From NCBI GenBank assembly GCA_016342655.1, contig JAEINL010000003.1, forward strand, positions 1 to 64,000: 64,000 nt of DNA. The letters are read 5' to 3'. The notes under the pieces are model-generated. The model was given only the letters and a program-made list of their open reading frames with translations, searched no databases and was not told the origin of the DNA. The DNA is from Sphaerochaeta sp. GTDB taxonomy: Bacteria; Spirochaetota; Spirochaetia; Sphaerochaetales; Sphaerochaetaceae. Of this stretch, positions 6,124 to 40,287 are shown one piece after another (position 1 is the first letter of the stretch; every line of letters begins with the position of its first letter). The position numbers and the translations under genes are program-made.

Positions 6124-6137
6124 CTCTTTCTTCCTCT

Positions 6138-8003: not shown

Positions 8004-8018
8004 TGTGCACTCCTTGTA

Positions 8019-13677: not shown

Positions 13678-13706
13678 AGGGTCTCTTTATTCCTTTCTTT
13701 AGTAAA

Positions 13707-13733: not shown

Positions 13734-13756
13734 ACCTTACACACATCGATCACAGG

Positions 13757-22829: not shown

Positions 22830-24311
22830 TCACGCGTTGGAAAGCGTCATGTGAACAGCTTTGAGCCATCCCCTGTATTTGGATTCTGCTTTTTCTGCAG
22901 GAAGGAGGGGAAGGTATTCTGATTGTACCCTACCTGGGAATACCCTCTCGCTACTGAAGAACCCCAGCTTTTTCCCAGCTAGGATTGCAGGACCTTGTCC
23001 GGAGAGTTCCTCAAGCGATGCCACCCCCACAGTTGCCCTGACTATATCTGCCTGAAACTGCATCAGAAAGGCATCCTTTGTTGGCCCTCCGTCGACTTGA
23101 ACCCTGTCTATGGGGTATCCGCTTTCCTTCTTCATAAGAAAGAGGATGTCTGCTATCTGGTACGCTATTGACTCCTCAGCTGCTCTGATGATCTCATTCT
23201 TGCCTGTTGTCCTACTCATTCCTGAGATTGACGCTCTGGCCTGCTCCTTCCAATAAGGGGCCCCCAGCCCTGAGAATGCAGGCACAAGATAGAGATCTGG
23301 TGAATCATTGGCCAGAGCGGCCAGCTTGCCAGCCTCTTGGGGAGAGCCTAACAGTTTGAGGTCCTCAACAAGCCAGGTTATGGTCGCCCCTGTATAATTG
23401 ATGTTCCCTTCCAGCACATAGGTGGGTACCCCCTTGGAGCACCAGGCAATGGAGGTCACCAAATTCTTGGATACAGTCGGTTTCGATCCGATATTCATCA
23501 TGATAGACGATCCTGTCCCATAGGTTGCCTTTACCATTCCCTCTTGTGTGCACCCCTGGGCAAACAGGGCTCCCTGGGAATCTCCGAGGACCCCACATAT
23601 GGGGATAGGCTCTGTAAGCAACCCTCCAAGGGTCGTATGGCCGAAGATTGCATCGGAGTCTACGATTGCAGGCAGTTGTCCTGCCCTGATCCCGAAAAGG
23701 GTGCATAACTCTTCATCCCATGAGAGGTTGTGTATGTTTAGTAACTGGGTTCTGGAGGCATTGGAGGGTTCTGTCAGTACCACATGCTCTTCACTAAGGT
23801 GATAGAGCAGGAAGCTGTCGATGGTAGAAAGGATCAGGGAGTTGTTTTCAGCCAGTTTTTGGACAAGGGGAACCTCTTCAAGAAACCACGCAAACTTGGC
23901 AGCGGAAAAGAAAGGGGATAGGTTCAGTCCTGTCTTTTTCTTGATTATTGTAGCATGACCTTCCTTATTCTTGCAGATATCGGCGGCGCGTCCGCACTGC
24001 CAGACAATAGCATTGTGTGCAGGTTTTCCAGTGCTCTTATCCCAAGCAATGGATGTCTCGCGCTGATTGGAAAGGGAGAGAGCAAGGATTTGTTCAGGTT
24101 CAATTGCAGTCTCTTCAATGACTTTCCGAATGGCCATAAAGACATTCTTTAGGATTTCTTCCCCGTCATGTTCAACCCATCCCAGTTCGTTAATAATCTG
24201 TCTGTGGGGAACGTCCGAGCGTCGTACCAGGTTTCCCTCCTTGTCAAAGAGGAGGGCTTTGGTTGTTGAGGTGCTTTGGTCCACGGAAAGGATGTATTGC
24301 TGGTCATGCAT
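22830..24311 (-). CDS. FGGY-family carbohydrate kinase (glycerol-kinase-like)
   Basis: A 493-residue FGGY kinase. The N-domain has SVDQSTSTTKALLFD and SNQRETSIAWD, close to glycerol kinase. The C-domain contains the adenosine-binding TYGTGSSIMMN and the VDGGPTKDAFLMQFQADI motif. It is the last gene of the isomerase-transketolase operon; its ATG at 24311 overlaps the transketolase stop by 8 bases (an upstream ATG at 24350 gives a longer overlap). In this setting a ketose such as a pentulose or apulose is a likelier substrate than glycerol, but the glycerol-kinase-like motifs keep that open. Confidence 0.8.
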   Translation of the reverse strand: MHDQQYILSVDQSTSTTKALLFDKEGNLVRRSDVPHRQIINELGWVEHDGEEILKNVFMAIRKVIEETAIEPEQILALSLSNQRETSIAWDKSTGKPAHNAIVWQCGRAADICKNKEGHATIIKKKTGLNLSPFFSAAKFAWFLEEVPLVQKLAENNSLILSTIDSFLLYHLSEEHVVLTEPSNASRTQLLNIHNLSWDEELCTLFGIRAGQLPAIVDSDAIFGHTTLGGLLTEPIPICGVLGDSQGALFAQGCTQEGMVKATYGTGSSIMMNIGSKPTVSKNLVTSIAWCSKGVPTYVLEGNINYTGATITWLVEDLKLLGSPQEAGKLAALANDSPDLYLVPAFSGLGAPYWKEQARASISGMSRTTGKNEIIRAAEESIAYQIADILFLMKKESGYPIDRVQVDGGPTKDAFLMQFQADIVRATVGVASLEELSGQGPAILAGKKLGFFSSERVFPGRVQSEYLPLLPAEKAESKYRGWLKAVHMTLSNA

Positions 24312-25266
24312 GGAAGCCTCGCTTGAGATCAAATAGTCTGACAGCCGCATCTGTTATCCCCTTTGCATCGAGGCTATAGTAGGCAAAAAGCTCAAGGGAT
24401 TCCCCTGTGATCAGGTACTCATCGGGGATGGCTAGGTTTTTCACCGGTACTGGGTGGTTGCTACTTACCACTTGGGTGACAATGCTTCCCAAGCCTCCGT
24501 ATATGCTATGCTCCTCTATGGTGAGGATAGCTCCGGTGTCGATGGCTGCTTCGGTGATCGCCTGCTCGTCAAAGGGCTTGAGGGTAGCCATATCAAGAAC
24601 CCGCGCCTGGATGCCTTTCTCCCTGAGCAGCTGGGCTGCCTGTAGGGTATGGTAGACCATCTCTCCACAGGCCACAAGAGTTAGGTCTGATCCTTCTCTC
24701 AAACGATTAGCCTTGCCGAGGATGAAGGGTTCTCCGGAATAGTGCTCATTATAAATTACAGGAACTTTCCCACGTCCAACACGGATATAGGTGGCGTCGG
24801 TGCCCTGTTCAATGGCTTGCAGCATAGCTCTGGTCTGCACTGCATCCGATGGAATGATTATCTGCAGGTCAGGGAAACAGCGCAGCACAGCGATATCATG
24901 GAGTGTGTGGTGGGAGGCACCCAGTGCCCCATAACTTATCCCCCCGCTGACTCCAAAAATCTTCACATTCTGGTGTGAGTAGGCAACATCGACCTTGATC
25001 TGTTCCAAGGCACGTGCTGTAAGAAAGCAGGCTGGGGCACAGACGTAGGGATGTTTTCCCGACAAGGCCAAGCCCGCGGCGATACCCACCTCATTCTGTT
25101 CGGCAATGCCGACCTCTACGAACTGGTTGGGTAGCTCTTGTACATACGTGTTCAGGGCGCAGGAGCCCCGGGAATCAGAACTGATGATAAGGATATCAGG
25201 ATTCTGTCTGGCCAGCTTGAGCAAGGCATCAGTGAAGGCCTCCTTGCAGGCTTTGTATTCAGGCAT
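24304..25266 (-). CDS. Transketolase, C-terminal subunit
   Basis: A 320-residue subunit with the Pyr and C-terminal domains of a split transketolase: FVEVGIAEQNEVGIAAGLALSGKHP (ThDP-activating glutamate in the IAEQN motif), YGALGASHHTLHDIAVLRC, and TIEEHSIYGGLGS near the C-terminus. It overlaps the N-terminal subunit gene by 8 bases. Two-subunit transketolases of this kind are often dedicated to one sugar pathway rather than the pentose phosphate cycle; apulose-4-phosphate transketolase AptAB is a known example. Confidence 0.88.
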   Translation of the reverse strand: MPEYKACKEAFTDALLKLARQNPDILIISSDSRGSCALNTYVQELPNQFVEVGIAEQNEVGIAAGLALSGKHPYVCAPACFLTARALEQIKVDVAYSHQNVKIFGVSGGISYGALGASHHTLHDIAVLRCFPDLQIIIPSDAVQTRAMLQAIEQGTDATYIRVGRGKVPVIYNEHYSGEPFILGKANRLREGSDLTLVACGEMVYHTLQAAQLLREKGIQARVLDMATLKPFDEQAITEAAIDTGAILTIEEHSIYGGLGSIVTQVVSSNHPVPVKNLAIPDEYLITGESLELFAYYSLDAKGITDAAVRLFDLKRGFHA

Positions 25267-26092
25267 GGGTAAGCTCCTCCTCGAGTCTGTCCAGTTGGGC
25301 CATAGTACTGGCGAATAATTGGGTGTTAGGGACACCATGGTGCCATTTTGCTAGGTTTTCCATTTCCCTGACCCCTTTACCCTTAAGGGTATGGGCGATG
25401 ATGAGAGACGGCTTCCCTTCCTCAAAGGGTGTTTTTGTCAGGCTGGATACAACCTCCTGCATATTGTTGCCGTCAATTTCCCTGACGCTCCACCCAAAGG
25501 TAGCCCACCGCTCGGAGAAGGGCTCGAGATTCATGACCTCTGCTGTCGTTCCTGAGATCTGCAGATGGTTCCTGTCTACAATGGCGACCAGATTGTCCAA
25601 CTTGTAGTGGGATCCCGCCATGGCAGCTTCCCAGACAGAGCCTTCGCCTTGCTCTCCGTCTCCCATAAGGACAAAGACACGATTGTCCTTATGGCTTTTC
25701 TTAAGCCCGAGGGCAGTTCCCACGGAAATGGACAGCCCGTGACCAAGGGCACCGGTATTCATTTCCATGCCGGGAATCTTGTTGTTTGGGTGTCCTATGA
25801 GCCTGCTTTTATACTGGCTGAAGGTCATCAGCTCCTCTCGGGGGAAGAATCCCCTCGCTGCCAGAACCGCGAGGTACCCTTCCACACAGTGCCCTTTGGA
25901 GAGGATGAAGTAATCACGCCCTTCCCAGGTGGGGTTCTGGGGATCTATGTTCAGCACTTCATGAAAGAGTGCTGTCATGATATCTGCCGAGGAGAGAGAC
26001 CCTCCTGTGTGGCCTGTCTTTGCATTGTGGATCATGGTAAGCAGGTCCCTTCTGGTTCTCACCGCTTGCAGTTCCAACTCTCTGATGGTCAT
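25259..26092 (-). CDS. Transketolase, N-terminal (ThDP-binding) subunit
   Basis: A 277-residue ThDP-binding subunit: GHTGGSLSSADIMTAL, YFILSKGHCVEGYLAVLA, the ThDP motif GDGEQGEGSVWEAAM with LVAIVDRNHLQ, and AHTLKGKGV. The start is taken as ATG 26092, because the in-frame GTG at 26101 overlaps the AAAGGTGA ribosome site. With the next gene it forms one enzyme that moves two-carbon ketol units. Confidence 0.88.
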   Translation of the reverse strand: MTIRELELQAVRTRRDLLTMIHNAKTGHTGGSLSSADIMTALFHEVLNIDPQNPTWEGRDYFILSKGHCVEGYLAVLAARGFFPREELMTFSQYKSRLIGHPNNKIPGMEMNTGALGHGLSISVGTALGLKKSHKDNRVFVLMGDGEQGEGSVWEAAMAGSHYKLDNLVAIVDRNHLQISGTTAEVMNLEPFSERWATFGWSVREIDGNNMQEVVSSLTKTPFEEGKPSLIIAHTLKGKGVREMENLAKWHHGVPNTQLFASTMAQLDRLEEELTHA

Positions 26093-26122
26093 CTTTTTCA
26101 CCTTTATTCCGTACCTGGGTCC

Positions 26123-26140
26123 TGCAGTACTTGTACTGCA
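26123..26140. promoter_or_regulatory. Intercistronic hairpin
   Basis: TGCAGTAC, two bases, then GTACTGCA: a perfect hairpin in the 78-base gap between the isomerase-like gene and the transketolase genes. No T-tract follows, so RNA processing or stability is more likely than termination. Confidence 0.4.
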
Positions 26141-26170
26141 CAGGTGGTTGCTATGTTACTTCTTCTGTAC

Positions 26171-27592
26171 CTACTGCATGCTCGGTATGTCTTCACCCCT
26201 CAGGTATGCCTTGACATCCTCTTCGACTGGGTCATAGAGATCGGGTTTCACTCCGATGTATTTGCAAGCCTCATATAGGATGGGTACGATATTCTGATGG
26301 ATTCCGACACAATGATGGATGTACGGCCCTGTTACGATTTTCTCTTCCAGTCTTCTGATGTTTTCAACTTCGATCCAGAGATAGGTTCCCATACACTTTG
26401 GTCCGGATACGCCTTTTGCATTGCCCAGGAGTAACGAGTACTCACCGTTGTCCCCATCGAAGCGGCAAAGGGTTACCTTGCCGCCCTTGGCTTCAGCTGT
26501 AAGGCTGCCCGGATGATCGAATGCAAGGGGATATCCAAGCACCGGTTTTTCTTTGGCAACAGAGACCGGCCAAGGCCCGCAATGCTGCAGCAGTTCCCCG
26601 TTGGGGATGTCGGGGTGGCGGATAGTCCAGTCAGCGAAGAAGGACCTGCTCTTGTCCATGCCCGCCGCTTCCACCAGAAGAGCTGTGATAGCCCCATGGA
26701 TATCTGTCTCACAGACAACAGGAATTCCCTCATCATTGAGCAGCGCGTTGGCTGCACAGGGCATAATTCCTAATTCTTCCTGCAAGGCGTTCCAACACTG
26801 TATGGCGATAGCCTTGCAGCCGTAGTGCTTGGCTAGGTCGCTCATGGCCACCTTCAGAGCCGCTACAGTCTCAAGCTGCTGATCAGTGATTTTGATGACC
26901 ATGGATTCTCGGACATAGTCGATGACCTTCTGCACGGCTGCCTTTTTCTCTTTCTTTGCCAGTCTGACCTCTGGGGTCAGCTCGGGCATGGGGATAGGGG
27001 CAAGCTGGATGTTGAAGCGTTCGAGCAATTCCCCCTCATTGCACATGGTTGTCCAGAAATCAAAGGGACGGGTGGATATCTGGAGGATCCTGATGGATCT
27101 GAAGGACTTCACCGTATTGCAGACCGCCATAAAATCCCTGACTCCCCGTTCGAACTCAGGTTCTGTGACCCTGCAGTTGGTCATATAAGTAAAGGGGACA
27201 CCAAAACGCCTGAGTACCTTGCCAGTCGCAAAAAGCCCGCACTGGGTGTCACGTAAGCGTACCCCATCGGGTTCGGGCCTTTCATCCAAAGGACCCCAAA
27301 GCAGGACGGGAACTCCCAGCTTCTTTGCAAGACGCGCAACGACATACTCTGTGCCGAAGTTGCAGTGAGGCAGGAACAGTCCGTCAACCTCCTCTTCCTT
27401 GAACTTGTGCTCTATCGCAAGTATGTCCTGGTCGTCATAGAGGAGGCCTTCTTCATTGATGTCTGTTATGTCAACGAACTCAATTTCCAGTTCCTCCAAT
27501 CGCTGTGCAGTGATGTTGCGGTATTTGATGGCGTCGGGTGCGCTGAATATGCTTCTTCGTGTGGGGGCAAACCCCAGTTTGATGCTGGCCAT
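26171..27592 (-). CDS. L-fucose/L-arabinose isomerase-family protein
   Basis: A 473-residue protein with the fold signature of the FucI/AraA superfamily: an N-terminal Rossmann-like part (LGFAPTRRSIF, FLPHCNFGTEYVVARLAKKLGVPVL), a middle domain ending in CETDIHGAITALLVEA, and a C-terminal barrel with DWTIRHPD and GPYIHHCVG. Many members of this branch do not have the classic fucose isomerase substrate. As first gene of an operon with split transketolase and an FGGY kinase it should feed a ketose to the kinase. The start at 27592 has a strong AAGGAGAGGA ribosome site. Confidence 0.78.
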   Translation of the reverse strand: MASIKLGFAPTRRSIFSAPDAIKYRNITAQRLEELEIEFVDITDINEEGLLYDDQDILAIEHKFKEEEVDGLFLPHCNFGTEYVVARLAKKLGVPVLLWGPLDERPEPDGVRLRDTQCGLFATGKVLRRFGVPFTYMTNCRVTEPEFERGVRDFMAVCNTVKSFRSIRILQISTRPFDFWTTMCNEGELLERFNIQLAPIPMPELTPEVRLAKKEKKAAVQKVIDYVRESMVIKITDQQLETVAALKVAMSDLAKHYGCKAIAIQCWNALQEELGIMPCAANALLNDEGIPVVCETDIHGAITALLVEAAGMDKSRSFFADWTIRHPDIPNGELLQHCGPWPVSVAKEKPVLGYPLAFDHPGSLTAEAKGGKVTLCRFDGDNGEYSLLLGNAKGVSGPKCMGTYLWIEVENIRRLEEKIVTGPYIHHCVGIHQNIVPILYEACKYIGVKPDLYDPVEEDVKAYLRGEDIPSMQ

Positions 27593-27635
27593 GGTCCTCT
27601 CCTTACCTTGAATTGTGGATAACAAGCTCAGTACT

Positions 27636-27664
27636 ATCCTACGCTAATATTTTGTCATCGTCAA
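27636..27664 (-). promoter_or_regulatory. Promoter of the isomerase-transketolase-kinase operon
   Basis: Minus-strand TTGACG (27659-27664), 17 bases, then TAGGAT (27636-27641). The DeoR-like repeats lie directly upstream. Confidence 0.55.
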
Positions 27665-27672
27665 TTAAAAAG

Positions 27673-27703
27673 TTTCGTTTGGTTTCATTTAGTTTTCATT
27701 TGG
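27673..27703. promoter_or_regulatory. Tandem DeoR-type operator repeats
   Basis: Three 10-base direct repeats, TTTCGTTTGG (27673), TTTCATTTAG (27683) and TTTCATTTGG (27694), spaced 10 and 11 bases apart, one helical turn. DeoR/GlpR proteins often bind such phased TTTCRTTT repeats. The divergent DeoR gene at 27913 is the obvious candidate. Confidence 0.6.
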
Positions 27704-27912
27704 TTACTATTTTTTTGGGGGGGTATGGAGCAGTTACCCTGTATTCTTGTAACTGGCCTATGTACAAGTGTACAGAAAATCGGGAGGAACCCCATGAGTA
27801 TTAGTTTCTATTTGCACAATTACTGAAGATAGTACGCGTATAAACAAAAGATTTCTTTTCTTTTTGTTTGTTTTGCTGTATGATTTCGAAGAATTAGAGG
27901 AGGAGAGCCACT

Positions 27913-28816: not shown

Positions 28817-31234
28817 TTACTTCTTCAGGCTGAAGTTCATCCTATCGATCACATCATTTTGCAACTCAGTGTTCAATGGGGTGAAGAATGCGCTGTACCC
28901 TGCAACCCTGACCAAAAGATCCTTGTACTCTTCAGGTTTCCTTTGGGCTTCCCTTAAGGTTTCATTATCCAGCACATTGAACTGGATATGGTACTGGTAG
29001 TTCTTGAAATGCGTTTTCACCAAGGCCAGGATTCGCTTCCGTGACTCTTCAGATTCAAAGGAATCAGGGGTGAGCCGCATGTTGAAGATTGATCCTTTCT
29101 GAAACCAGATGCTTGGAAGTTTGCTCTCAGAATTGATGGTTGCAGTGGGGCCGTTCTGCTCCGATCCGTTGGCAGGAGAGACGCCATTATTTACGGGTAA
29201 GGATGCTTTTCTCCCGTTTGGCAGAGCCCCAACCGACTTTCCGAAAGGAACGTTACCTGTTACAGAGCTTTTGCTGAGTGCAAATGTTGCAGGGATAGGT
29301 CCTTTGCCATATCTTGAGCTCTTGAAGGATCTCTGATACGTGGATCCGAGAAATTCACTGATTTGTACAGTCCATTTGTCAGCATACTCATCATCATTGC
29401 CGAATTTAGGAACCTTGTTGACCATCAGGAGCCTGATCTCTTCTCCGGTAGGAGTTGTTGTGCCATCCTCAAAATTGGTCTCCAAGGCATGCTTCAGCTG
29501 GGAAGCTGTGAGAATCTTCTTGTCGAAAAGGATGTATTCCAAAGCTGCGAAGGAGTCCCCCACGCTGATGGAACCCGCAGTCGGACCTCCATCAGCAGTG
29601 TAGACTGCGCCTCCCTCGATCAGGGACTTTCCCCGTCCTATACAGTCATCGATCAGGGAGGACCTGAACGCATTCTGGTCATGGAGAATGTGCATCTCGT
29701 CAGAGATGTGTTCTACAATGACTTGCAGGCGCATGTAGTGGAAAAGCTGCTTCTTGAAAGCCGTCATGATCTCCTGCATTGTCTTGAAGGTGGTCAGGTC
29801 GCCATCTCCTTTGAGAAGGGTTACTCCAGTAGCAGGATCGGTTCCATTATTTAGGGTGATTTCAAATACCTTGGCTACATTTAGCCAAGAGCCTTTTGCA
29901 GCGAAATCCCATTTCCCTGGTATGGATGCTTCGATACACCCTACGGGTGCCCAGTTGTACAGGTCTTCCTTTGCAATACCCATGTTGTCGAGGATTCGCA
30001 TGACCCCAAGGTCATTATAGAAGGCAGGCTGTCCTCCCTTGTGTATCGCTACCACCTGCAATGCCTGGTCCATCAGCTTGTCGTCAGTTCCTTCGAACCA
30101 CTTGAACGAAACCGATGGTTTGGGCAGTCCCATGTCGGCTGTTGCCTGCAGCACTATGCTGGTGAGGGCATTGGCAGCATCCTTACCGTCAGATGTCTGG
30201 CCTCCAATGGCAAGGTTTTCTGCCAAATGATACCCTGGGAAGTATTCGCTATCGGGCCATGAACGGAGTTTGTTGATTTCGTTGGCCTTGATGAAGAAGC
30301 TTTCTACAAGTTCCAGAGCCTCAGAATCTGTAAGAGTGCCATTTTTGGCATCCTTTTCCAGATAGGGAAAGAGGAATTGATCAAATCTTCCCAAAGAGAT
30401 TGCATGACCATTTGTCTCTATCTGCAGAATGAGCTGGATGAACCATACGGTTTGAACAGCCTGCCAAAAGGTCTTTGCGGGTTTTGCAGGCACTTGCCTG
30501 CAGTTTTCTGCCATGGTGGTCAACTCTGCTTTTCGCTTTGGATCCTGCTCTTTCTCGGCCAGTTTTTCCAATAGCTCTGCGTACCTCTCAGCAAATCTAA
30601 TGACCGCTTGATTGGAGAGGATGACAGCCTGTAGAAACCATGACTGCTTGATCGTATCGGGGTCAGCGAGGTCAAGGGAATCCAGTCGGGCTTGGGCTCT
30701 CTCAATGATATGCTCCAAGCCATGCTCAAGGATTACAGCATGGTCTGGGAGAATATTTCCTAGGCCAGCTGCAGCACACCATGTATCGTCAATCGCATTG
30801 ATCTCCCATGCTTTGCGTGCATCGTCTGGCAGCTCGCGCCATACATTCTCTATAAGAGTCTTGCCTTTCCAGTAGTCTATAGTCTTCAGTACTTCTTGTT
30901 TTGTCTTCTCTGAATAGGCGAATTGATCACAAGGACGCTCTGGGAAGGCATAGGGTTTTCCAGCGAACTCCTCTTCAATCCATTTGTAGGAGTATTCAGG
31001 GAATACTGGTGCTCCTCGAACAGTGCTGGCCTGGTTTCCTACCAACAACTCCCCATCACGTACAAAAATCGTCATTGTATCGAGGATTTCATACAATGCC
31101 TGGGCACGTCTCTTCACAATGGGAGCGCCTTCGCTTCTTTTCATAGCTTCTGTAAAGAGAACGGCACGCTCGGAACAAATCTCCGGTGTTATATCCAGCA
31201 ATTCCTCTCTCAGCTTGTTGATTCTTGTGTTCAT
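28817..31234 (-). CDS. Glycyl radical enzyme, PflD/YbiW-like
   Basis: An 805-residue glycyl radical enzyme. The catalytic cysteine is Cys433 with Glu435 in VGCIEASIPGKW, the Cys-x-Glu arrangement of dehydratase/lyase-type members rather than the Cys-Cys of pyruvate formate-lyase. The radical glycine is Gly779 in RVAGYSAFF. Overall it resembles E. coli PflD/YbiW more than choline or glycerol lyases. I recall one member of that branch being assigned as 1,5-anhydroglucitol-6-phosphate dehydratase (unverified memory). Oxygen-sensitive, cytosolic, requires the activase at 34096. A LacI operator lies 19 bases before the ATG (31234; ribosome site GGAGGAG). No microcompartment genes are nearby. Confidence 0.88.
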   Translation of the reverse strand: MNTRINKLREELLDITPEICSERAVLFTEAMKRSEGAPIVKRRAQALYEILDTMTIFVRDGELLVGNQASTVRGAPVFPEYSYKWIEEEFAGKPYAFPERPCDQFAYSEKTKQEVLKTIDYWKGKTLIENVWRELPDDARKAWEINAIDDTWCAAAGLGNILPDHAVILEHGLEHIIERAQARLDSLDLADPDTIKQSWFLQAVILSNQAVIRFAERYAELLEKLAEKEQDPKRKAELTTMAENCRQVPAKPAKTFWQAVQTVWFIQLILQIETNGHAISLGRFDQFLFPYLEKDAKNGTLTDSEALELVESFFIKANEINKLRSWPDSEYFPGYHLAENLAIGGQTSDGKDAANALTSIVLQATADMGLPKPSVSFKWFEGTDDKLMDQALQVVAIHKGGQPAFYNDLGVMRILDNMGIAKEDLYNWAPVGCIEASIPGKWDFAAKGSWLNVAKVFEITLNNGTDPATGVTLLKGDGDLTTFKTMQEIMTAFKKQLFHYMRLQVIVEHISDEMHILHDQNAFRSSLIDDCIGRGKSLIEGGAVYTADGGPTAGSISVGDSFAALEYILFDKKILTASQLKHALETNFEDGTTTPTGEEIRLLMVNKVPKFGNDDEYADKWTVQISEFLGSTYQRSFKSSRYGKGPIPATFALSKSSVTGNVPFGKSVGALPNGRKASLPVNNGVSPANGSEQNGPTATINSESKLPSIWFQKGSIFNMRLTPDSFESEESRKRILALVKTHFKNYQYHIQFNVLDNETLREAQRKPEEYKDLLVRVAGYSAFFTPLNTELQNDVIDRMNFSLKK

Positions 31235-31252: not shown

Positions 31253-31266
31253 TGAAAACGGTTTCA
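31253..31266. promoter_or_regulatory. LacI-type operator before the GRE gene
   Basis: TGAAAACGGTTTCA, a near-perfect LacI-family palindrome, lies 19 bases upstream of the GRE start. Matching sites occur at 33038-33051 and 36642-36655. Confidence 0.75.
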
Positions 31267-31316: not shown

Positions 31317-32093
31317 TTATATCACTTGTAGCACAGTTTCTTTATCTTGCAGAAACTTCCGATGTTTCTCTTGCAGGGAGTTGTCAGTAAGTATCAGGTC
31401 AAACTCTTCCATACCTGCAAAATAACAAGAATGCACAAAGCCAAACTTAGTTGAGTCCACTACCAGGATTTTTTCCAGGGATGATTCCATGGCTGTCTTT
31501 TTTATGACACATTCGCTCTGGTTGGCACAGGTGACTCCCAGTTTTTCATGGACACCCCCAGCGGAGATGAATGCTTTTCGAATGCGATTGTTTCGAAGGA
31601 TTTCTGAATCCATCGACTGTTCCAAAATCATGGTCTTCCTATTGTACATTCCTCCAATGAGGATAACATCGATATTTTTCTTATTAGCTATGGTGAGGAA
31701 TACATTGATGGAGCAACAGACTACAGTAACATGGAACTCTGAAGGAATAAACTGTGCAAGGAGCTCTGTCGTTGACCCTCCATCCAGAAAGATAATGTCA
31801 TTATCCTCTACCAGAGAAGCAGCATACTGGGCTATGCGTTTCTTCTTTTCCTTGTTTTGGCTCTCTGCAACAGCAAGAAGATAGTCAGAGAGACTTCCCT
31901 TAGCCTCATCACCAGTAAAGATTACAGCACCGTACAAGACCTTCACTTCTCCTTGATTTGAAAGGAACTCCAAGTCCCTTCTCGTGGTCATGGGAGATAC
32001 TCCAAGGCGTTCTGATATTTCTGTTATCTTCAAAGAGCCTTCCAACTGTAAAATCCTTATCAAGGACTCAAGTCTAGCTTTTTTTGTTGTCAT
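31317..32093 (-). CDS. DeoR/GlpR-family transcriptional regulator
   Basis: A 258-residue DeoR protein. The helix-turn-helix contains ITEISERLGVSPMTTRRDLE, and the sensor domain has IIFLDGGSTTELLAQF, ILIGGMYNRKT, FISAGGVHEKLGVTC and VVDSTKFG. It lies immediately upstream of the GRE gene on the same strand and is divergent from the class II aldolase gene. Being inside the cluster it likely senses a phosphorylated intermediate, as a second layer on top of the LacI regulator. Confidence 0.87.
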   Translation of the reverse strand: MTTKKARLESLIRILQLEGSLKITEISERLGVSPMTTRRDLEFLSNQGEVKVLYGAVIFTGDEAKGSLSDYLLAVAESQNKEKKKRIAQYAASLVEDNDIIFLDGGSTTELLAQFIPSEFHVTVVCCSINVFLTIANKKNIDVILIGGMYNRKTMILEQSMDSEILRNNRIRKAFISAGGVHEKLGVTCANQSECVIKKTAMESSLEKILVVDSTKFGFVHSCYFAGMEEFDLILTDNSLQEKHRKFLQDKETVLQVI

Positions 32094-32221: not shown

Positions 32222-32896
32222 ATGCAAAAAGCTACTAAAGAATCGTTCAAACAACTCATTGTTGATACTGGAATGGAAATGCTTGCTACAGGCTTGACTG
32301 TAGGGACTTGGGGAAACATAAGTGTTCGGGATCCTGAGAGCGGGTATATCTATATAAGCCCAAGTGGAATGGATTACAAGATAATTAAAGCCCATCATGT
32401 TGTGGTGCTTACAGACACCTGTGAACTTGTTGAAGGTGAATGCGAACCTTCAATAGAAAAACACATGCATGCAGCAGTCTACAGAGCTAGAGCTGATGTC
32501 AATTCAGTAATCCATACACATCCAATCTACTCGACACCTTTTGGCCTTACAAACACGACTATGATCGGAGTAAGTGAGGATTTTATCCAGATTGTTGGTG
32601 ATGAGATATATCCTGCCTATCCGTATGAGTTGCCTGGAACCGAAGAGCTTGGTGTAACGGCTGTCAATGCATTGAAGGGAAAAAATGCTGTCCTCCTTCC
32701 TGGCCATGGCTTGCTGGCGGTTGGCTCATCGTTAAAAATGGCCTTCAAGATATGTACTGTTGTCGAAAAGAACGCTCAAATCTTATTGTACACCAAACTG
32801 CTTGGAGGTGAGATAAGGCGTTTTACCCAGCATGAAATTGATGCAATGCAGAGCTTTGCTAAAAACCATTACGGGAAAATGAATCAAGAAATGTAG
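32222..32896 (+). CDS. Class II aldolase/adducin-family protein
   Basis: A 224-residue class II aldolase of the fuculose-1-phosphate / ribulose-phosphate epimerase-like family. TVGTWGNISVR contains the phosphate-binding loop, YISPSGMDY follows, VIHTHPIYSTPF supplies two zinc histidines and LLPGHGLLAVG the third. Fuculose aldolases split a ketose 1-phosphate into DHAP and an aldehyde; others cleave or epimerise tetrose or pentose phosphates. With the rhamnulokinase-like enzyme at 41376 a DHAP-yielding split is the likely role. Start chosen from a GAGGGGA ribosome site. Confidence 0.85.
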   Translation: MQKATKESFKQLIVDTGMEMLATGLTVGTWGNISVRDPESGYIYISPSGMDYKIIKAHHVVVLTDTCELVEGECEPSIEKHMHAAVYRARADVNSVIHTHPIYSTPFGLTNTTMIGVSEDFIQIVGDEIYPAYPYELPGTEELGVTAVNALKGKNAVLLPGHGLLAVGSSLKMAFKICTVVEKNAQILLYTKLLGGEIRRFTQHEIDAMQSFAKNHYGKMNQEM

Positions 32897-33037: not shown

Positions 33038-33051
33038 TGAAAACGGTTTCT
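33038..33051. promoter_or_regulatory. LacI-type operator before the LacI regulator gene
   Basis: TGAAAACGGTTTCT, one mismatch from the site before the GRE gene, just upstream of the ribosome site of the LacI gene. It indicates autoregulation. Confidence 0.75.
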
Positions 33052-33068
33052 AACAGGAGGTGAGCCCA

Positions 33069-34082
33069 ATTAAATATACCATAAATGAGCTAGCCAAACT
33101 ATGTAAGACATCCCCTGCTACCATATCAAGGATTACCAATAATCCTGAACTGGTTTCTCAACCATTGAGAGAGAGGATTGAGAACACAATGAAGGAGGTT
33201 GGGTACAAGCCCAATCCTTTTGCTTCTCGGCTAAGTTCCAACTCCACCTGGGGGTTGGGTCTTTTTGTCTTCGACATCCTCAATCCCTTCTTTGCATTGA
33301 TTGTGAGAAATATCAGTCATCTTGCCATGGAAGAACAGATTCCTCTTACTGTGTGTGACACTGAGAACAACGAGGAGAAAGAAAATCTCTATTTGGAATA
33401 TCTTTTGGATACCAAGGTGGAAGGGATTATCTTTGCTGAAGGAATCTCCCTGAAAACAATCGAGAAGGCAAAGAAATACACCCGTGTTGTGCTGATAGAC
33501 AGCCATTACCATCATGGTTCAATTTCTGAAGTCCATAGTGATAACTATGGTGGCGCTTGTCTTGCTGTCGAGCATCTGATTGCTCTGAATCATACCAAGA
33601 TAGGATTTGTTGGGGGGCCAGAAGATTGGCCGACTGCCCATGATCGTTTCCTTGGCTATGAGGGCACGCTTCGCAAACACAATATCCCTATCCGTTCTGA
33701 CTTTTTTTTCCCAGGTGACCTCCGCTTTGAATCAGGAGGGGATGCTATTGATACCTACATATCTTTGCAGGATAAGCCGACAGCCATCTTTTGTGCGAAC
33801 GACCAGATGGCATATGGGGCTCTTGCTCGGGCAAAGAACTGCGGCATAGCTATTCCAGGAGATCTTTCCATTGTCGGGTTTGATGACATACCCCTCTACA
33901 ATGTCTTTGATACCAAGCTGACAACGGTACACCAGGATATACAAGCGTTAAGCGAACACTCGTTCAATTTGCTTTTCCCAAAAGACAAGAAAAGCGACTT
34001 TTCCAATAATCCAAAGGAGGTAACAGTCCCCACCACCTTAGTGCCGGGACAGACCTGTAGGGCTTTGCCTTCGAATCATTAA
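33069..34082 (+). CDS. LacI-family regulator of the GRE regulon, possible ATT start
   Basis: A ~337-residue LacI/GalR regulator: helix-turn-helix YTINELAKLCKTSPATISRI, and a sensor domain with FANxx-type segments such as AIFCANDQMAYG and SIVGFDDIPLYN. The ribosome site AGGAGGTGA (33055-33063) is a perfect 16S match. An in-frame GTG at 33060 lies inside it, too close to work well. ATT at 33069, five bases past the site, begins the sequence where relatives usually start (M-K-Y-T-I). No ATG is available nearby. It probably binds the three TGAAANCGGTTTC sites. Thirteen bases separate it from the activase gene. Confidence 0.8.
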   Translation: MKYTINELAKLCKTSPATISRITNNPELVSQPLRERIENTMKEVGYKPNPFASRLSSNSTWGLGLFVFDILNPFFALIVRNISHLAMEEQIPLTVCDTENNEEKENLYLEYLLDTKVEGIIFAEGISLKTIEKAKKYTRVVLIDSHYHHGSISEVHSDNYGGACLAVEHLIALNHTKIGFVGGPEDWPTAHDRFLGYEGTLRKHNIPIRSDFFFPGDLRFESGGDAIDTYISLQDKPTAIFCANDQMAYGALARAKNCGIAIPGDLSIVGFDDIPLYNVFDTKLTTVHQDIQALSEHSFNLLFPKDKKSDFSNNPKEVTVPTTLVPGQTCRALPSNH

Positions 34083-34095: not shown

Positions 34096-34998
34096 ATGAA
34101 TGTTTTTACCATAGAACGATTTGGGACGAAAGATGGGCCTGGTATCCGCACAGTTGTATTTTTCAAGGGGTGTAACTTGCGTTGTGCTTGGTGTCAGAAC
34201 CCAGAATCACAGCTGGCAAAGCCACAAGTAATGTATACTCAAGCGTCCTGTGTTGGATGTGGAAAATGCGCAGAGGTCTGTCCGGTTGGGGCTATTACGT
34301 ATGATGAAACCTTTGGATTTATCTCTGATTCCAATCTCTGCGTTCTCTGTGGGGCTTGTCTGGATGCTTGTCTGTATGATGCCCGTTCGATAGTGGGGAA
34401 AGAGTGGGATGAAGACCTTTTAGTGAAGGAGCTGCTCAAAGATAGACAATTCTTTAGTGAAAGTGGTGGAGGTGTGACCTTTTCTGGTGGAGAGCCCTTG
34501 CTACAAGGCAAGTCTTTGGTTTCTTTGTCCGCTGCTCTGAAGAAGGAGCATATCAATCTAGCAATCGAAAGCGCTGCTTGTGTGCCATGGCCTGTGCTTG
34601 AGCCTTTTCTTCCGCTTATTGACCTTTTTTACATTGATATAAAACACCTTGATTCTGAAAAGCACAAGAAGTATACAGAATCTGATAATTCTCTAATCTT
34701 GGAAAATATCATTGCACTGGATAGGAACGGGGCGAATGTAATCATACGGGTTCCCATTATTCCAGGGTTTAATGATACCGCAGAAGAAATGCGCAAAACC
34801 TTTTCTTTCCTCAAGGAAAACACTTCATTGCAGAAAGTTGAACTTCTCCCTTTTAATCGGTTGGGACTGGCCAAGTATAGGGGCTTGGGTAGGGCTTATG
34901 CATATGAAAAAACACAGAACATGGTCAATGAAGATTTGACGGATTTGGTTCTCCTCGGGAAGGAGTATGGGCTCTTGGTGCATGCAGGGGCACTTTGA
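34096..34998 (+). CDS. Glycyl radical enzyme activase (radical SAM)
   Basis: A 300-residue radical SAM protein that installs the glycyl radical on its partner, most likely the GRE at 28817. The SAM cluster motif is CNLRCAWC (about residues 31-38). A two-cluster ferredoxin insert follows (CVGCGKCAEVCPVG, then CVLCGACLDACLY). GGGVTFSGGEPLLQ is the usual SAM-contact motif. It is co-transcribed with the LacI gene upstream and overlaps the DUF4037 gene by one base (TGATG). The GRE gene itself is 3 kb away on the opposite strand, which is unusual. Confidence 0.93.
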   Translation: MNVFTIERFGTKDGPGIRTVVFFKGCNLRCAWCQNPESQLAKPQVMYTQASCVGCGKCAEVCPVGAITYDETFGFISDSNLCVLCGACLDACLYDARSIVGKEWDEDLLVKELLKDRQFFSESGGGVTFSGGEPLLQGKSLVSLSAALKKEHINLAIESAACVPWPVLEPFLPLIDLFYIDIKHLDSEKHKKYTESDNSLILENIIALDRNGANVIIRVPIIPGFNDTAEEMRKTFSFLKENTSLQKVELLPFNRLGLAKYRGLGRAYAYEKTQNMVNEDLTDLVLLGKEYGLLVHAGAL

Positions 34999-35927
34999 TG
35001 AAAGGGTTGCAGGTATCTGAGCTTTTCTATGAGCAGGTGGTGCGCCCTTCGTTCATGAAAGAACTTTCTACCCAAGAGTTTGGATGTCTGTCCTTCGGTC
35101 TAGTAGGGCCTGGATCGGAGTGCTATGGTTTTGATGATGAGTTGTCTAGAGATCATGATTGGGGTCCCCGAGTCATGGTTTGGGTTCCTGACACTACTTC
35201 CAAGGATACGGTAGCGAGGTATCAGAGGATATACGACGGGTTGGATCCTCACTTTCTTGGATATGGGTTCTCCTGCAAAGTGGATAGGTCTGTAATCCGT
35301 CAAGGGGTCCTTCCCGTTGGAGGCTTCTTTTCCTCTGTACTTGGGTATGACCACCCTCCTGCCACCGAAATTGAATGGATTGTGGTTAAGGAGGAAGCCC
35401 TTTCTCTCGCTACCAACGGAAAGGTGTTTTATGATGGTCCGAACTTGGTCACAGCCTTCCGCCAAAGGCTCATGGCGTACTATCCCCAGGATGTGTGGCT
35501 GAAGAAACTCTCTTCCCGATGCGCCCTTATGGCCCAATATGGACAGAGCAATCTCCTTCGCTCCTATGAGCGCAAGGATGCATTGGGCGTTGGATATGAG
35601 CTGTCCATGTTTGCCAGGGAAGCTGCAATGCTTGTGTATCTGCTGAAAAAGCAATACAGGCCTTATTACAAATGGTTATATGTTGGGTTGGAAGGACTAG
35701 GTGAGCTTGGTAGTTCTGTGAGTAAGCAATTGAAGGCTCTCCTTGTGGCACGTTCTATGCAAGAGCGATTGGATAGGATTGAGAAGCTTGTAGTGTACTT
35801 GCAGGATGCAATTTCCCGTGCATTGGACCTTACCCCTTGTACTTCCTTTATGCTCCCCCTTGCAGAACAGATCCAGAGGGGAATCCAAAGTGAATTTTTA
35901 CGGGAGTATCCCGGATTGTTGGAATAA
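34998..35927 (+). CDS. DUF4037-domain protein (nucleotidyltransferase-like)
   Basis: A 309-residue protein. The N-terminal part has a nucleotidyltransferase-like signature, GPGSECYGFDDELSRDHDWGPR (cut: GPGSE, then the Asp pair in SRDHDWG), typical of DUF4037. The C-terminal ~130 residues are helical. No catalytic role is established for this family. The start is ATG 34998, coupled to the activase stop; the frame also contains an upstream TTG at 34995. The tight coupling suggests a role in the GRE or activase, for instance modification or repair. Function unknown. Confidence 0.7.
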   Translation: MKGLQVSELFYEQVVRPSFMKELSTQEFGCLSFGLVGPGSECYGFDDELSRDHDWGPRVMVWVPDTTSKDTVARYQRIYDGLDPHFLGYGFSCKVDRSVIRQGVLPVGGFFSSVLGYDHPPATEIEWIVVKEEALSLATNGKVFYDGPNLVTAFRQRLMAYYPQDVWLKKLSSRCALMAQYGQSNLLRSYERKDALGVGYELSMFAREAAMLVYLLKKQYRPYYKWLYVGLEGLGELGSSVSKQLKALLVARSMQERLDRIEKLVVYLQDAISRALDLTPCTSFMLPLAEQIQRGIQSEFLREYPGLLE

Positions 35928-35940
35928 GGTGGTCGGATGT

Positions 35941-36492
35941 ATGGATACAAAGAAAGACAGACTGATACAAAAGGTTGTTGCACTTGAGGCTGAGATGTTT
36001 GTCGGTGTTCGCAGTTCAGTGCCAGCCCCTTGCCAACAGGATTTGGAGGCCTTCTCCTTGCATCGGGAGGCGCAGGTATACCCATGGTCTGAAAAGACCC
36101 TAAAGAGGTATCTCTCTGACCTTCTTTGTGCCAAGCGACAGGGGATAAATCTCATGACCATTAAGTATGCCAGGATGGGGGAACAAATACCCCCATATTC
36201 CAGTAATCCCCTGATTGCGAAGTTGGTGGAACAATTCCTCAGATGGCAGATCGAGACTAAGGAAAAATTCCCAAAGGTGATGCAGGGCTCACGAACCATA
36301 AAGGACTTTTGCATCTATCTTGCCAGTGAGTTGGAAACCTATTCAGACCGAACACTTGAGCTTTTGGATTCTGATGTCGCCTCTTTCTTGGCTGAGGGCA
36401 AAAACATGATAGTCTCTACATATGAGAGATTAGCAAACAGGTATGGTTTTTCGTCCTTGCGTGCAATGGAAGAGCATTTTTGGAGGAAATAG
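35941..36492 (+). CDS. DUF4125-family protein
   Basis: A 183-residue, largely helical protein recognised as DUF4125-like (VALEAEMFVGV, SLHREAQVYPWSEKTLKRYLSDL, IKYARMGEQIP, LEEHFW-type end). It follows the DUF4037 gene by 13 bases; the two domains are also found fused in other bacteria, as I recall. No motif suggests an enzyme active site. A role alongside the activase is inferred only from context. The start at 35941 is chosen from homology, since the longer in-frame start at 35806 lies inside the DUF4037 gene. Confidence 0.65.
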   Translation: MDTKKDRLIQKVVALEAEMFVGVRSSVPAPCQQDLEAFSLHREAQVYPWSEKTLKRYLSDLLCAKRQGINLMTIKYARMGEQIPPYSSNPLIAKLVEQFLRWQIETKEKFPKVMQGSRTIKDFCIYLASELETYSDRTLELLDSDVASFLAEGKNMIVSTYERLANRYGFSSLRAMEEHFWRK

Positions 36493-36603: not shown

Positions 36604-36655
36604 TTGACATGTGGAGTTTTTGTGTTAGACTTTTACCAGTATGAAATCGGTTTCA
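36604..36655 (+). promoter_or_regulatory. Promoter and LacI operator of the ribose-type importer operon
   Basis: TTGACA (36604-36609), 16 bases, TAGACT (36626-36631), then the palindrome TGAAATCGGTTTCA (36642-36655) just after the likely start of transcription. The same promoter sequences (TTGACA, 16 bases, TAGACT) and a similar palindrome stand before the LacI gene at 59987. Confidence 0.75.
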
Positions 36656-36757
36656 GTGGAAACCAATGACCGGTGCATGAAATGCAGAATGTTGGTGTTT
36701 TGGTGAAAGTGATTCCATATACCACAGTTGTGGTGGAAAAACTAAGGAGGACTTATG

Positions 36758-37708
36758 ATGAAAAAGGTGGTTGTATTGGCTCTGGTTGTGATGTTCGTTG
36801 CAACATTCGGCGTGTTTGCTGCTGGTGCGCAGGAAGCGGCAGGTCCTGGTTTGATGGTTATTATTACTCCTGATAAGGATAATACATTCTTTACTGCTGA
36901 AGCAGATACTGCAAAAACTGTAGCCGAATCATTGGGGTACAGGACTTTGCTTGCAGTTCATGGTGATGATCCGATGAAAGAGAGTGATATCATCGATTCC
37001 GCCATTTCCAGCAAGGCTGTAGCAATCATCATTGATGTTGCTAACTCCGATGCTTCTCCCAACAACCTGAAAAGGGCAAAAAATGCTGGAATCCCAGTAT
37101 TTCTCATGGATAGGGAGATTAACACCACAGGTATTGCAGAAGCACAGTTTATTTCCAACAACTTCCAGGGCGCAACGCTCGGTGCTGAGTATTTTGTAGA
37201 GCTCATGAAAGAAAAAGGCAACTATATTGAGTTGGTCGGTAAAGAGTCAGATACCAACGCTGGTGTCCGCTCAAAGGGTTTCCATAGCATCATTGATCAG
37301 TATCCTGACATGAAGATGGTTGCACGTGAGACTGCAAACTGGGATCAGAATGAAGCGTATGCTAAAGTTGAGTCAATTCTCCAGTCCAATCCAAAGGTGA
37401 ATGGAATCATTTGTGGTAATGATACCATGGCCCTTGGAGCACAGGCTGCTATTGATTCAGCAGGAAGAAGCGACATCTTTGTTCAGGGATTCGATGGTAA
37501 TGATGATGTTCTTGATTCAATCATGATGGGCAAGATTGATGGTACTTCGATGCAGCCAAATGCCCTCAATGCTGAGATGGCTGTCAAGACTGCAGATAAA
37601 TTCATCAAGACTGGGTCTACCGGTTTGACTGAAGAGAAAGTGCTCAACGGTTGTTTCTTGATTACTCCTGAAAATGCTAGCCAGTGGAGAGGCTTCACGA
37701 AGAAATAA
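36758..37708 (+). CDS. rbsB: Ribose-type sugar ABC transporter, substrate-binding protein
   Basis: A 316-residue periplasmic binding protein of the RbsB family. A signal peptide (MKKVVVLALVVMFVATFGVFA) precedes the spirochaete-style AGAQEAAG. The mature part has the RbsB-like IDVANSDASPNNLKRAKNAGIPVFLMDRE (key piece GIPVFLMDRE) and GNDTMALGAQAAIDSAGR segments. ATG 36758 is favoured over 36755 by spacing to AAGGAGG. The substrate is a sugar or polyol processed by this regulon; ribose itself is not implied. Confidence 0.9.
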   Translation: MKKVVVLALVVMFVATFGVFAAGAQEAAGPGLMVIITPDKDNTFFTAEADTAKTVAESLGYRTLLAVHGDDPMKESDIIDSAISSKAVAIIIDVANSDASPNNLKRAKNAGIPVFLMDREINTTGIAEAQFISNNFQGATLGAEYFVELMKEKGNYIELVGKESDTNAGVRSKGFHSIIDQYPDMKMVARETANWDQNEAYAKVESILQSNPKVNGIICGNDTMALGAQAAIDSAGRSDIFVQGFDGNDDVLDSIMMGKIDGTSMQPNALNAEMAVKTADKFIKTGSTGLTEEKVLNGCFLITPENASQWRGFTKK

Positions 37709-37933: not shown

Positions 37934-37974
37934 CGAATTGATATGTAGTAATTTTGATGCTGTGGAGTTATCCC

Positions 37975-38700
37975 ATGAAGAATACCAAATACGTTACAAG
38001 TTGTTTTGCTGTCCTGTTATTGGTTCTGTTTGCTTGTCTCTTCTCTTCTTGTACCATTCGCAAATTGAGCGAAATTGAATCAAAGGCCTCTTGTTCAGAT
38101 GATTCAGGCTACGACTTTTCAGCGTGGACAAAAAGTGGTAGTTCCTTTAATCCAAAAGCGTATGTAGAAGAAAATTGGGATTCTAAGATTATACCCCTAT
38201 TCTTAGAAAATTCGATAGATGCGGTTACCGTTATTTCTTCTTTGAGACTAGAGGGTGCCGATACTGCGCTAGCAACCTATGGAGTAGAAAGAGAAGATGG
38301 CTCAAGGATGCAGGGGTTTAAACTCACAGCGGTGGCTACGGTAACAGAATATGACGACTCTTCTCGCAACGGCTTGATCAGAATAGATTTCGCCCCTGAG
38401 GATGGGGTATTTGACGCCATCCTGCAGGTAGGTCCGGTCATCAAACAGACCGCAATTCGAGATACGTTGGAATGCGTTGGCTTTACGGATGCGGGAAACC
38501 AGATGTTCTTTGCTGAGCTCTCGGATGAATTGAACAAGATGATGAGATTGAAGGCAATTGATCCTTTGGACTTGACTACCATCACGGGCAAGAAGATCAA
38601 GTTCTATGGTGCCCTGAAGATTAATGAGGGGGACACTGATTTTTCATCGATAGTAATCACCCCTGTGCTGATTGAAATACTTGATGATAGCCAAAATTGA
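37975..38700 (+). CDS. DUF2291-family lipoprotein
   Basis: A 241-residue protein with a lipoprotein signal peptide: basic start, hydrophobic stretch, then the lipobox-like SSCTIRKL with Cys at about residue 26. The family DUF2291 is commonly encoded within ribose-type ABC transporter operons. Its role is unknown; a membrane-anchored accessory of substrate capture is a guess from context. The ATG at 37975 is preceded by TGGAG; a longer in-frame start at 37954 is less likely. Confidence 0.8.
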   Translation: MKNTKYVTSCFAVLLLVLFACLFSSCTIRKLSEIESKASCSDDSGYDFSAWTKSGSSFNPKAYVEENWDSKIIPLFLENSIDAVTVISSLRLEGADTALATYGVEREDGSRMQGFKLTAVATVTEYDDSSRNGLIRIDFAPEDGVFDAILQVGPVIKQTAIRDTLECVGFTDAGNQMFFAELSDELNKMMRLKAIDPLDLTTITGKKIKFYGALKINEGDTDFSSIVITPVLIEILDDSQN

Positions 38701-38714
38701 ATAGGGAGAGAGGA

Positions 38715-40271
38715 ATGGATAAGCACGATGATATCCTGTTGATGGAAGCAAAAAACATCAGCAAAGTTTACCCAGGAACCAAAGCACTGAACGACGTTGA
38801 TTTTCAAATTTTCAAGGGAAAGGTGAATGTGCTGATCGGTGAAAATGGTGCCGGAAAATCCACATTGATGAAGATTGTTGCAGGTATCCAGAAGCCCACA
38901 GATGGGAAGATGATCATCTATGATGAGAGGGGGAATGGTGAAGAGGTCACCTTTTCCTCAACCCGTGAGGCTTCACGCAAAGGGATTGAGATAGTCCATC
39001 AGGAACTGAATCTTTTTGGTGATATGAGCGTTGCTGAGAATATTTTCATGAATAGGGAGATAAAGAAATTTGGCTCCTTATGCATAGACCATGCTGCCCA
39101 AGAATCCAAGGCTTCAGAGATTTTGAGGCGGCTCAAGCAAGATATTGACCCCAAGACCCTTGTTCGTGACCTCAGGCTAGGGAAGCGCCAGATTGTAGAG
39201 ATTGCAAAGACCTTGGTGGAGGACCCAAAAATCCTGATCATGGACGAACCTACTTCCTCGCTGAGCATTCAGGAGGTAGATATCCTGTTTACCATGATTA
39301 GGGAGCTGAAGGCGCAGGGAGTGGCAATCGTGTACATCTCCCACAGGCTTGAGGAGCTTAAACAGATTGGTGATTATATCACTATTCTTCGTGATTCCAG
39401 GTTGGTGCACACCGGCCTTATTAGTGAACTGACGATCAAGCAGATTGTAGCCCTTATGATAGGCCGTGACCAGAAGGATTTCTTTGCAGGCAGTTCCCAT
39501 ACGACAGGAAAAGAGATTTTGGAGGTTAAGGATATCACCCTTCCAAGGCTTGGAGGTGGATTTACCCTCCAAAAAGTATCTTTTACCTTATATGAAGGGG
39601 AGATTCTAGGAATATATGGGCTTATGGGTGCTGGGCGCACGGAGTTGCTCGAATGTCTTATGGGACTGAATGACAAGATGGAGGGTGATATTCTGCTTGG
39701 AGGAAGTTCCCTCGCGGCAAAAGACACCAGAAGTCGCATAGACCGGGGTATGATTCTTATCCCTGAAGAGCGTCAAAGGGAAGGCCTGTTCCTGAACCTT
39801 TCAGTGAAAAGCAATATATCCATGGCAAGTCTGCTCAAGTATGTTGTTTCAAAAGTACATGTGAATAGAGAAAAGGAAGATTGTGGAGTGGATTCCATGA
39901 TCAAAGAGATGTCCATCAAGGTTGCCAATAAGAATTTGACAGTCAATGCCCTGAGCGGTGGTAATCAGCAGAAGGTTGTCATTGGGAAATGCCTTCTTAC
40001 CAAACCCAAGGTTTTGCTGATGGACGAACCTACCCGTGGAATTGATATTGGTGCCAAATCAGACGTCTTCCAGATCATGGGGGGAATGGCTGAAAAGGGT
40101 TTGGGCGTGATTTTTGTTTCCTCGGAGATGGATGAAGTCTGTTCCATGTCTGATAGGATCATCGTCCTGTCAAAGGGTGTGGTTACCGGGGTATTTACTA
40201 GGGCTGAAATTTCCGAAGAGAAAATTAGGAAAGCATCTGAAATCGGACATAGTTTGATTGTTACTGCGTAA
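38715..40271 (+). CDS. rbsA: Ribose-type sugar ABC transporter, ATP-binding protein
   Basis: A 518-residue RbsA/MglA-type double ATPase. Domain 1 has Walker A GENGAGKSTLMKI, the LRLGKRQIVEIAKTL signature region and Walker B ILIMDEPTSSL. Domain 2 has the degenerate GLMGAGRTELLECL, LSGGNQQKVVIGKCL and LLMDEPTRGIDIGAK. It energises uptake through the permease at 40288. The ATG at 38715 follows GGGAGAGA; the frame opens slightly earlier over the DUF2291 stop. Confidence 0.93.
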   Translation: MDKHDDILLMEAKNISKVYPGTKALNDVDFQIFKGKVNVLIGENGAGKSTLMKIVAGIQKPTDGKMIIYDERGNGEEVTFSSTREASRKGIEIVHQELNLFGDMSVAENIFMNREIKKFGSLCIDHAAQESKASEILRRLKQDIDPKTLVRDLRLGKRQIVEIAKTLVEDPKILIMDEPTSSLSIQEVDILFTMIRELKAQGVAIVYISHRLEELKQIGDYITILRDSRLVHTGLISELTIKQIVALMIGRDQKDFFAGSSHTTGKEILEVKDITLPRLGGGFTLQKVSFTLYEGEILGIYGLMGAGRTELLECLMGLNDKMEGDILLGGSSLAAKDTRSRIDRGMILIPEERQREGLFLNLSVKSNISMASLLKYVVSKVHVNREKEDCGVDSMIKEMSIKVANKNLTVNALSGGNQQKVVIGKCLLTKPKVLLMDEPTRGIDIGAKSDVFQIMGGMAEKGLGVIFVSSEMDEVCSMSDRIIVLSKGVVTGVFTRAEISEEKIRKASEIGHSLIVTA

Positions 40272-40287
40272 TGGAGGAGGGACTTCA

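Follow-up and report, generated by a model that had tools for sequence, protein, structure and literature searches.

Which reaction is catalysed by the oxygen-sensitive glycyl radical enzyme (GRE) encoded at 28817..31234, on the minus strand, of a 64,000-nucleotide stretch of Sphaerochaeta sp. DNA (hereafter the window)? For many abundant GREs the reaction is not known. The enzyme described here has a coherent regulon, a binding protein whose ligand can be tested, and an active site that departs from other enzymes at the His residue essential in HypD, which makes its substrate, and the part played by this His, directly testable. The initial annotation had called the reaction uncertain, and we agree: homology gave no assignment, and every curated equivalog model failed.

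The glycyl radical enzyme and its clade

The reading frame starts with ATG behind a GGAGGA ribosome site, contains zero internal stops and encodes 805 aa. The active site was located exactly where the initial annotation had placed it, with Cys433 and Glu435 in GCIEASIPGKW and Gly779 in RVAGYSAFF. Pfam domains spanned the full length of the protein (PFL-like, E 4e-186; Gly_radical, E 3e-27). Conservation at the protein level across relatives of 52-77% identity indicated a real gene and not a chance frame. The source genome contained this GRE and one PFL, and no other glycyl radical enzyme was found in it. The GRE was seen in none of the 14 same-genus genomes sampled, which implied a patchy accessory gene.

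Relatives were drawn from genome contigs and, within the phylum and class, from about 790 whole genomes. The clade comprised 16 spirochaete sequences 52-77% identical to the GRE, with a main group of relatives at 69-77% identity and a divergent group at 52-54% (L012, L046 and L075). The CXE and Gly motifs were present in all 16 members, supporting the earlier reading of Cys-x-Glu as the mark of an eliminase. The sole NCBIfam model passed was TIGR01774, a broad PFL2/GD subfamily model (686 bits, cut-off 678), and the 52-54% relatives scored just under its cut-off. The glycyl radical motif, the CXE Cys, the linked activase and the family model together place the GRE in the CXE eliminase class (PFL2/GD family).

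None of the NCBIfam equivalogs (HypD, CutC, HpfG, HpsG, PflD, and the indoleacetate and hydroxyphenylacetate decarboxylases) was passed, with scores of about half of the cut-off or less. The GRE reached 492.5 bits against the PflD equivalog NF007437 (AM6P lyase; cut-off 1109), 488 against the CutC equivalog TIGR04394 (choline TMA-lyase; cut-off 1050), 505 against the HypD equivalog NF043068 (trans-4-hydroxy-L-proline dehydratase; cut-off 1100), and 527 and 505 against the HpfG/HpsG models NF048009 and NF048011 (sulfopropanediol dehydratases; cut-off 1000). In a control run by the same procedure, reference CutC scored 1675 bits and reference HpfG 1644 bits.

A maximum-likelihood tree that took in YbiW, PflD, GD, PD, CutC, HypD and one HpfG reference gathered all clade members into one clade (support 100), with two uncharacterised GREs as its sister (support 93). 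The clade and its sisters joined the YbiW-like enzymes (UFBoot 97), with PflD, CutC, HypD, GD and PD placed elsewhere, where the deep nodes were weak. A six-residue YG[RK]GP insertion was common to the query clade, its sisters and YbiW and absent from the others in the alignment; this independent character agreed with the placement on the YbiW side. The clade lay outside the YbiW clade proper, having only the larger branch in common with it. The tree did not group it with any characterised GRE whose substrate is known, which is the outcome that would have refuted the initial annotation. The likeness to PflD/YbiW proposed earlier from the motif was therefore borne out for YbiW, by branch and insertion, but not for PflD, which has neither the insertion nor a place in this part of the tree.

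The view of these two enzymes as uncharacterised is also outdated. YbiW and PflD cleave 1,5-anhydroglucitol-6-phosphate and 1,5-anhydromannitol-6-phosphate to 1-deoxyfructose-6-phosphate (PMC12441222; PDB titles 8id7, 8id0). E. coli YbiW (8id7) shares the GCIE..GKW form of the CXE motif with the GRE, at 36% identity. PflD of E. coli (8id0 is a Streptococcus homologue) is likewise a CXE eliminase and acts on a sugar-like compound, at 33% identity.

Several unassigned GREs, in tandem with activases and about 40% identical to the query GRE, were observed in L047 (G068) and L048 (G039); those of L047 were sister to the query clade. On a Chloroflexota plasmid (L070, 8968-12325), a YbiW-side GRE lay by a ROK kinase and a D-allose-type ABC importer with alsK and rpiB.

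Departures at the active site

The propanediol and glycerol dehydratases PD and GD (9rco, 5i2g, 1r8w) share the overall fold and the radical machinery with the GRE. However, the GD residues His164, Asp447, Ser282, Asn156 and Tyr339 were all replaced in it, including the diol-binding residues. With the placement in another clade and the failed CutC equivalog, this upheld the earlier view that the GRE is neither a glycerol/propanediol nor a choline enzyme.

The replacements were characteristic of the whole clade. GD position 164 was His in 38 of the 41 non-clade sequences and Asn (Asn160) in every one of the 16 members. Position 447 was Lys (Lys447) throughout the clade and never Lys outside it. 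Positions 156 and 282 were Trp (Trp152) and Ala (Ala278) throughout; Ala at 282 was also found in HypD-type enzymes. At 45 positions all clade members agreed on a residue that is rare elsewhere; many of these positions lie around 149-160, 443-450, 639-660 and 708-716, and Lys713 was likewise clade-specific. In comparison with YbiW, its His165, Thr455 and the Ser at GD position 282 were absent from 16/16 members, which carried Asn160, Lys447 and Ala278 instead.

In CXE enzymes the Glu acts as the base, and in HypD the equivalent of His164 lies next to it (PMC8473560, PMC7077986). This HypD residue, His160, is 2.5 Å from the CXE Glu, and the H160Q variant is inactive (PMC7077986). The catalytic His160 (HypD numbering) was absent from the GRE, which has Asn there. 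The exchange of His for Asn with the CXE motif kept suggested that the clade alters the acid-base environment while retaining the CXE base, and this might in turn affect which leaving group is handled. Overall, the GRE represents a real, well-conserved subfamily of its own, whose active site is distinctive and whose regulon is clear.

The AlphaFold structure predicted for the GRE, built with 13 aligned homologues, had a mean pLDDT of 57, and the Cys loop, the Gly loop and residues 149-163 were below 50; values this low at the active site make the model unfit for docking or pocket analysis. Its PDB matches, from PD to HypD, lay a few Z units apart (26.5 to 23.7), which does not separate subfamilies.

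The LacI regulon and its genes

The operator palindrome TGAAAWCGNTTTCA preceded the GRE (31253), the lacI-activase unit (33038) and the importer operon (36642). The first copy, the LacI operator TGAAAACGGTTTCA at 31253..31266, precedes the start of the GRE gene by about 20 bp; motif search gave the other two at 33038..33051 and 36642..36655. When up to two mismatches were allowed, the pattern had 8 strand matches in the window against 0.47 expected, and none of 100 shuffles reached 8. Operators at matching places were found in about a dozen relatives, and main-clade relatives had the palindrome ahead of the same units wherever the contig extends far enough. These predicted operators tie the GRE to its activase and to a ribose/apiose-type ABC importer.

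Directly upstream of the GRE is a DeoR-family regulator (DeoR2, 31317..32093, minus strand). Divergent from it, between GRE and lacI, lies a FucA-like class II aldolase gene (32222..32896); this and the following genes are on the plus strand. The LacI-family regulator (33060..34082), kept beside the GRE in main-clade relatives, is followed by the GRE-activating radical-SAM protein (34096..34998; TIGR02494 above cut-off), a DUF4037 protein conserved inside the GRE regulon (34995..35927) and the DUF4125 protein paired with it (35941..36492, start approximate). The DUF4037 and DUF4125 genes (34995-36492) co-travel in the regulon in most main-clade genomes and are absent from the divergent operons. 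The third operator unit encodes an RbsB-type sugar-binding protein (36755..37708), a DUF2291 lipoprotein identified by domain search (37954..38700) and, by homology, an RbsA-type ABC ATPase (38697..40271) and an RbsC-type permease (40258..41343). In the window this unit ends in a rhamnulokinase-like (RhaB-like) FGGY kinase (41376..42854). Both divergent operons read were on one strand, in the order GRE-activase-RhaB-RbsA-RbsC-RbsB-aldolase in L046 and GRE-activase-RbsC-RbsB-RbsA-RhaB-aldolase in L075.

The binding protein had 58% identity to RHE_PF00037 of Rhizobium etli (PDB 4ry0), named as a 'ribose transporter' protein, and 42% to a Thermotoga ribose-binding protein. At two positions, which we take to belong to the ligand region, it agreed with the R. 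etli protein in having Asp and Trp; the Thermotoga residues there are Asn and Phe. The importer with DUF2291, a neighbouring FGGY kinase and a split transketolase matched a cluster of E. coli SE15. Binding-protein similarity and this SE15-like architecture make a pentose-sized polyol or sugar the likely imported compound. In the 52-54% members the binding protein is a different one. PDB entry 5ibq, on which a literature search found no paper, is presumably a D-apiose complex.

Growth assays demonstrated that the SE15 pathway (AplK, AptA, AptB and a DUF2291-type ABC importer) uses D-apiose (PMC13001218). Its importer has the same architecture, and its kinase and split transketolase are homologous to a module adjacent to the GRE (22830..27625, minus strand; FGGY kinase, split transketolase and fucose-isomerase-like protein; 38-47% identical to AplK/AptA/AptB). 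However, the main parts of the two systems are only 38-52% identical, the E. coli cluster has no GRE, and the module here has no GRE-type LacI operator. Although linked to the GRE in some relatives, the module lies outside the LacI regulon and is only possibly part of the GRE pathway. D-apiose was considered as the GRE substrate, as suggested by the importer and the adjacent module, and rejected: simple elimination from apiose would give nothing that suits the kinase and aldolase, and the LacI operator is absent from the transketolase module, so apiose remains a hint for the importer only. The larger stretch at 22155-28674, with an Fsa-type aldolase, the FGGY kinase, the split transketolase, the fucose-isomerase-like protein and a DeoR regulator, resembles an apiose-type isomerase-kinase-transketolase pathway. 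Its isomerase-like protein matched SftI weakly, and Sphaerochaetaceae use a sulfo-transketolase (PMC13219744). A sulfosugar route for the GRE was dropped, as there were no sulfite or sulfonate genes and the IslA score was poor.

The linked kinase and aldolase are related to L-rhamnulokinase and L-fuculose-phosphate aldolase, with altered motifs. The kinase scored 334 bits against the L-rhamnulokinase model TIGR02627 (cut-off 528), and the aldolase 104 bits against the L-fuculose-phosphate aldolase model TIGR01086 (cut-off 400). The YRDxRT motif of RhaB and FucK was YRNxxG in the kinase. The PSSE of FucA was PSIE in the aldolase, with the metal His and catalytic Glu kept; the Ser pair at PSSE presumably binds the DHAP phosphate in FucA.

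A GRE-free module was found in L087, L089, L090 and L091. It consists of a DeoR regulator, an aldolase, an Lsr/RhaS-type importer with two permeases, whose relatives are annotated as autoinducer-2 type, and a kinase, without an isomerase. Its kinase and aldolase were about 50% identical to the GRE-linked ones; the kinases had YRNxxG in common, and the aldolases P[ST]IE together with the metal His and catalytic Glu. Judged by these motifs, the GRE-linked and GRE-free versions may act on the same compound. The kinase substrate would then be importable as such, and the GRE would make it from something else, as a feeder. The altered motifs held in common with a GRE-free, isomerase-free module thus favoured the order GRE, kinase, aldolase.

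Linkage of the kinase and aldolase to the GRE was not universal. Among the 15 other GRE genomes, several of which are incomplete MAGs, the kinase was missing in 10, and no kinase or aldolase above threshold was present in 9. Instead, four kinase-less genomes (L003, L004, L005 and L007) had parts of the transketolase/FGGY module beside the GRE. Transketolase co-occurrence across the genomes was uninformative, as split transketolases occur commonly in them. In L005, two aldolases named by eye lay at 12453-13892, on the opposite strand directly downstream of the GRE: one of class II, more distant in sequence, and one of the LsrF/DhnA type.

Candidate reactions

The best explanation, which we hold tentatively, is that a CXE-type glycyl radical eliminase acts on an imported sugar-like compound before the kinase and aldolase. 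The GRE probably breaks a C-O bond in this compound, after which the kinase and aldolase would complete its digestion. The importer would bring in a pentose-sized polyhydroxy compound, such as a pentitol, an anhydro-pentitol or an apiose-type compound. By analogy with characterised CXE eliminases, the activase would turn Gly779 into a radical, which would move to Cys433. The Cys433 thiyl would take a hydrogen from a carbinol carbon while Glu435 takes the hydroxyl proton, and the adjacent C-O bond would break with loss of the oxygen leaving group in a radical 1,2-elimination. Asn160 and Lys447, replacing the usual His and Asp, might handle the leaving oxygen. Back-transfer of the hydrogen would give a deoxy-ketose, to be phosphorylated by the kinase and split by the aldolase, and the GRE would stand in for the missing isomerase. 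If the GRE does feed a deoxy-ketose pathway, anaerobic spirochaetes would have a second radical sugar route beside the anhydro-sugar route of YbiW and PflD.

Several observations count against this explanation. A dehydration product has CH2 or CH3 beside the carbonyl and is not a normal FucA donor, although the altered PSIE site might accommodate a 1-deoxy-ketose. The clade-specific Lys447 and Lys713 would suit an anionic substrate. The gaps in kinase and aldolase among the 15 genomes, the differing binding protein of the 52-54% members and the low quality of the predicted structure at the active site also weigh against it. A more detailed version, offered as a speculation, is that the His-less GRE opens or dehydrates a free pentitol or anhydro-pentitol to a 1-deoxy-pentulose, which the re-purposed rhamnulokinase and the class II aldolase, with its phosphate-site Ser changed to Ile, would convert to hydroxyacetone and a phosphorylated aldehyde. 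A separate importer would then let some species take up the deoxy-ketose directly.

The kinase might instead act first, which we regard as possible but unlikely. The FGGY kinase would phosphorylate an imported anhydro-polyol, the GRE would open or dehydrate the ester to a 1-deoxy-ketose phosphate, and the aldolase would cleave it. This would be a variant of the E. coli YbiW/PflD pathway, in which an ABC importer and kinase replace the PTS and a class II aldolase replaces FsaA/B. The YbiW-side position of the clade, with insertion and GCIE..GKW motif in common, is consistent with such a variant, as YbiW and PflD act on 6-phosphates (PMC12441222), and a phosphate could be bound by Lys447 and Lys713. 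The gene at 22155-22829 also encodes an Fsa-type aldolase that scored above its NCBIfam cut-off, but in the relatives read no Fsa gene stood next to the GRE, and it was rejected as the partner aldolase. Moreover, the RhaB-like kinase is missing from 10 of the 15 other genomes that have the GRE, and the kinase and aldolase form a complete module without the GRE, which suggests that the GRE feeds the kinase and does not follow it. The earlier proposal that a phosphorylated anhydro-polyol is dehydrated and then cleaved by the aldolase survives in spirit only.

The references sampled for hydroxide elimination or ether-ring opening keep the His, and its loss in the clade raises the question of a different leaving group, such as an amine, a sulfonate or another good one. 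The residue at GD position 164 is Asp in CutC and probably Gln193 in IslA, where it binds the sulfonate (PMC8473560); this equivalence, like the mapping of the whole IslA sulfonate pocket (Arg189, Gln193 and Arg678), was made by numbering only, and the IslA bit score was far under that of YbiW. We consider this alternative improbable, since the clusters read contained no recognisable gene for an amine, sulfite or other leaving group, both importer and neighbours are sugar-type, and the CutC and sulfopropanediol models gave about half of their cut-offs.

Plain YbiW activity, as a 1,5-anhydroglucitol-6-phosphate (AG6P) lyase, is very improbable despite YbiW being the closest characterised clade by insertion and motif: identity is low, its His165, Thr455 and Ser are replaced without exception, and the locus has a pentose-type importer and no PTS. 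Least credible is the route proposed earlier in which the kinase and aldolase release lactaldehyde that becomes 1,2-propanediol and is dehydrated by the GRE, for although the GRE is linked to a kinase of the rhamnulokinase-like type and to a FucA-like aldolase, and PD and GD are among the best PDB sequence matches, the diol-dehydratase residues are replaced, PD and GD fall in another clade, no isomerase, lactaldehyde reductase (FucO), propionaldehyde dehydrogenase (PduP) or shell protein was recognisable in the window operons or in L046 and L075, and a PduP query found only an AdhE-sized homologue in the source genome.

Two other features of the window were noted. A cluster at 5230-9850 resembles myo-inositol catabolism, with IolE-, IolD-, IolB- and IolG-like proteins recognised by eye. 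At 14823-16142, a TnpB-like (IS605-type) frame runs into an ABC substrate-binding-protein gene at 13757-14866, whose start is truncated where the two overlap, as though an insertion had interrupted it.
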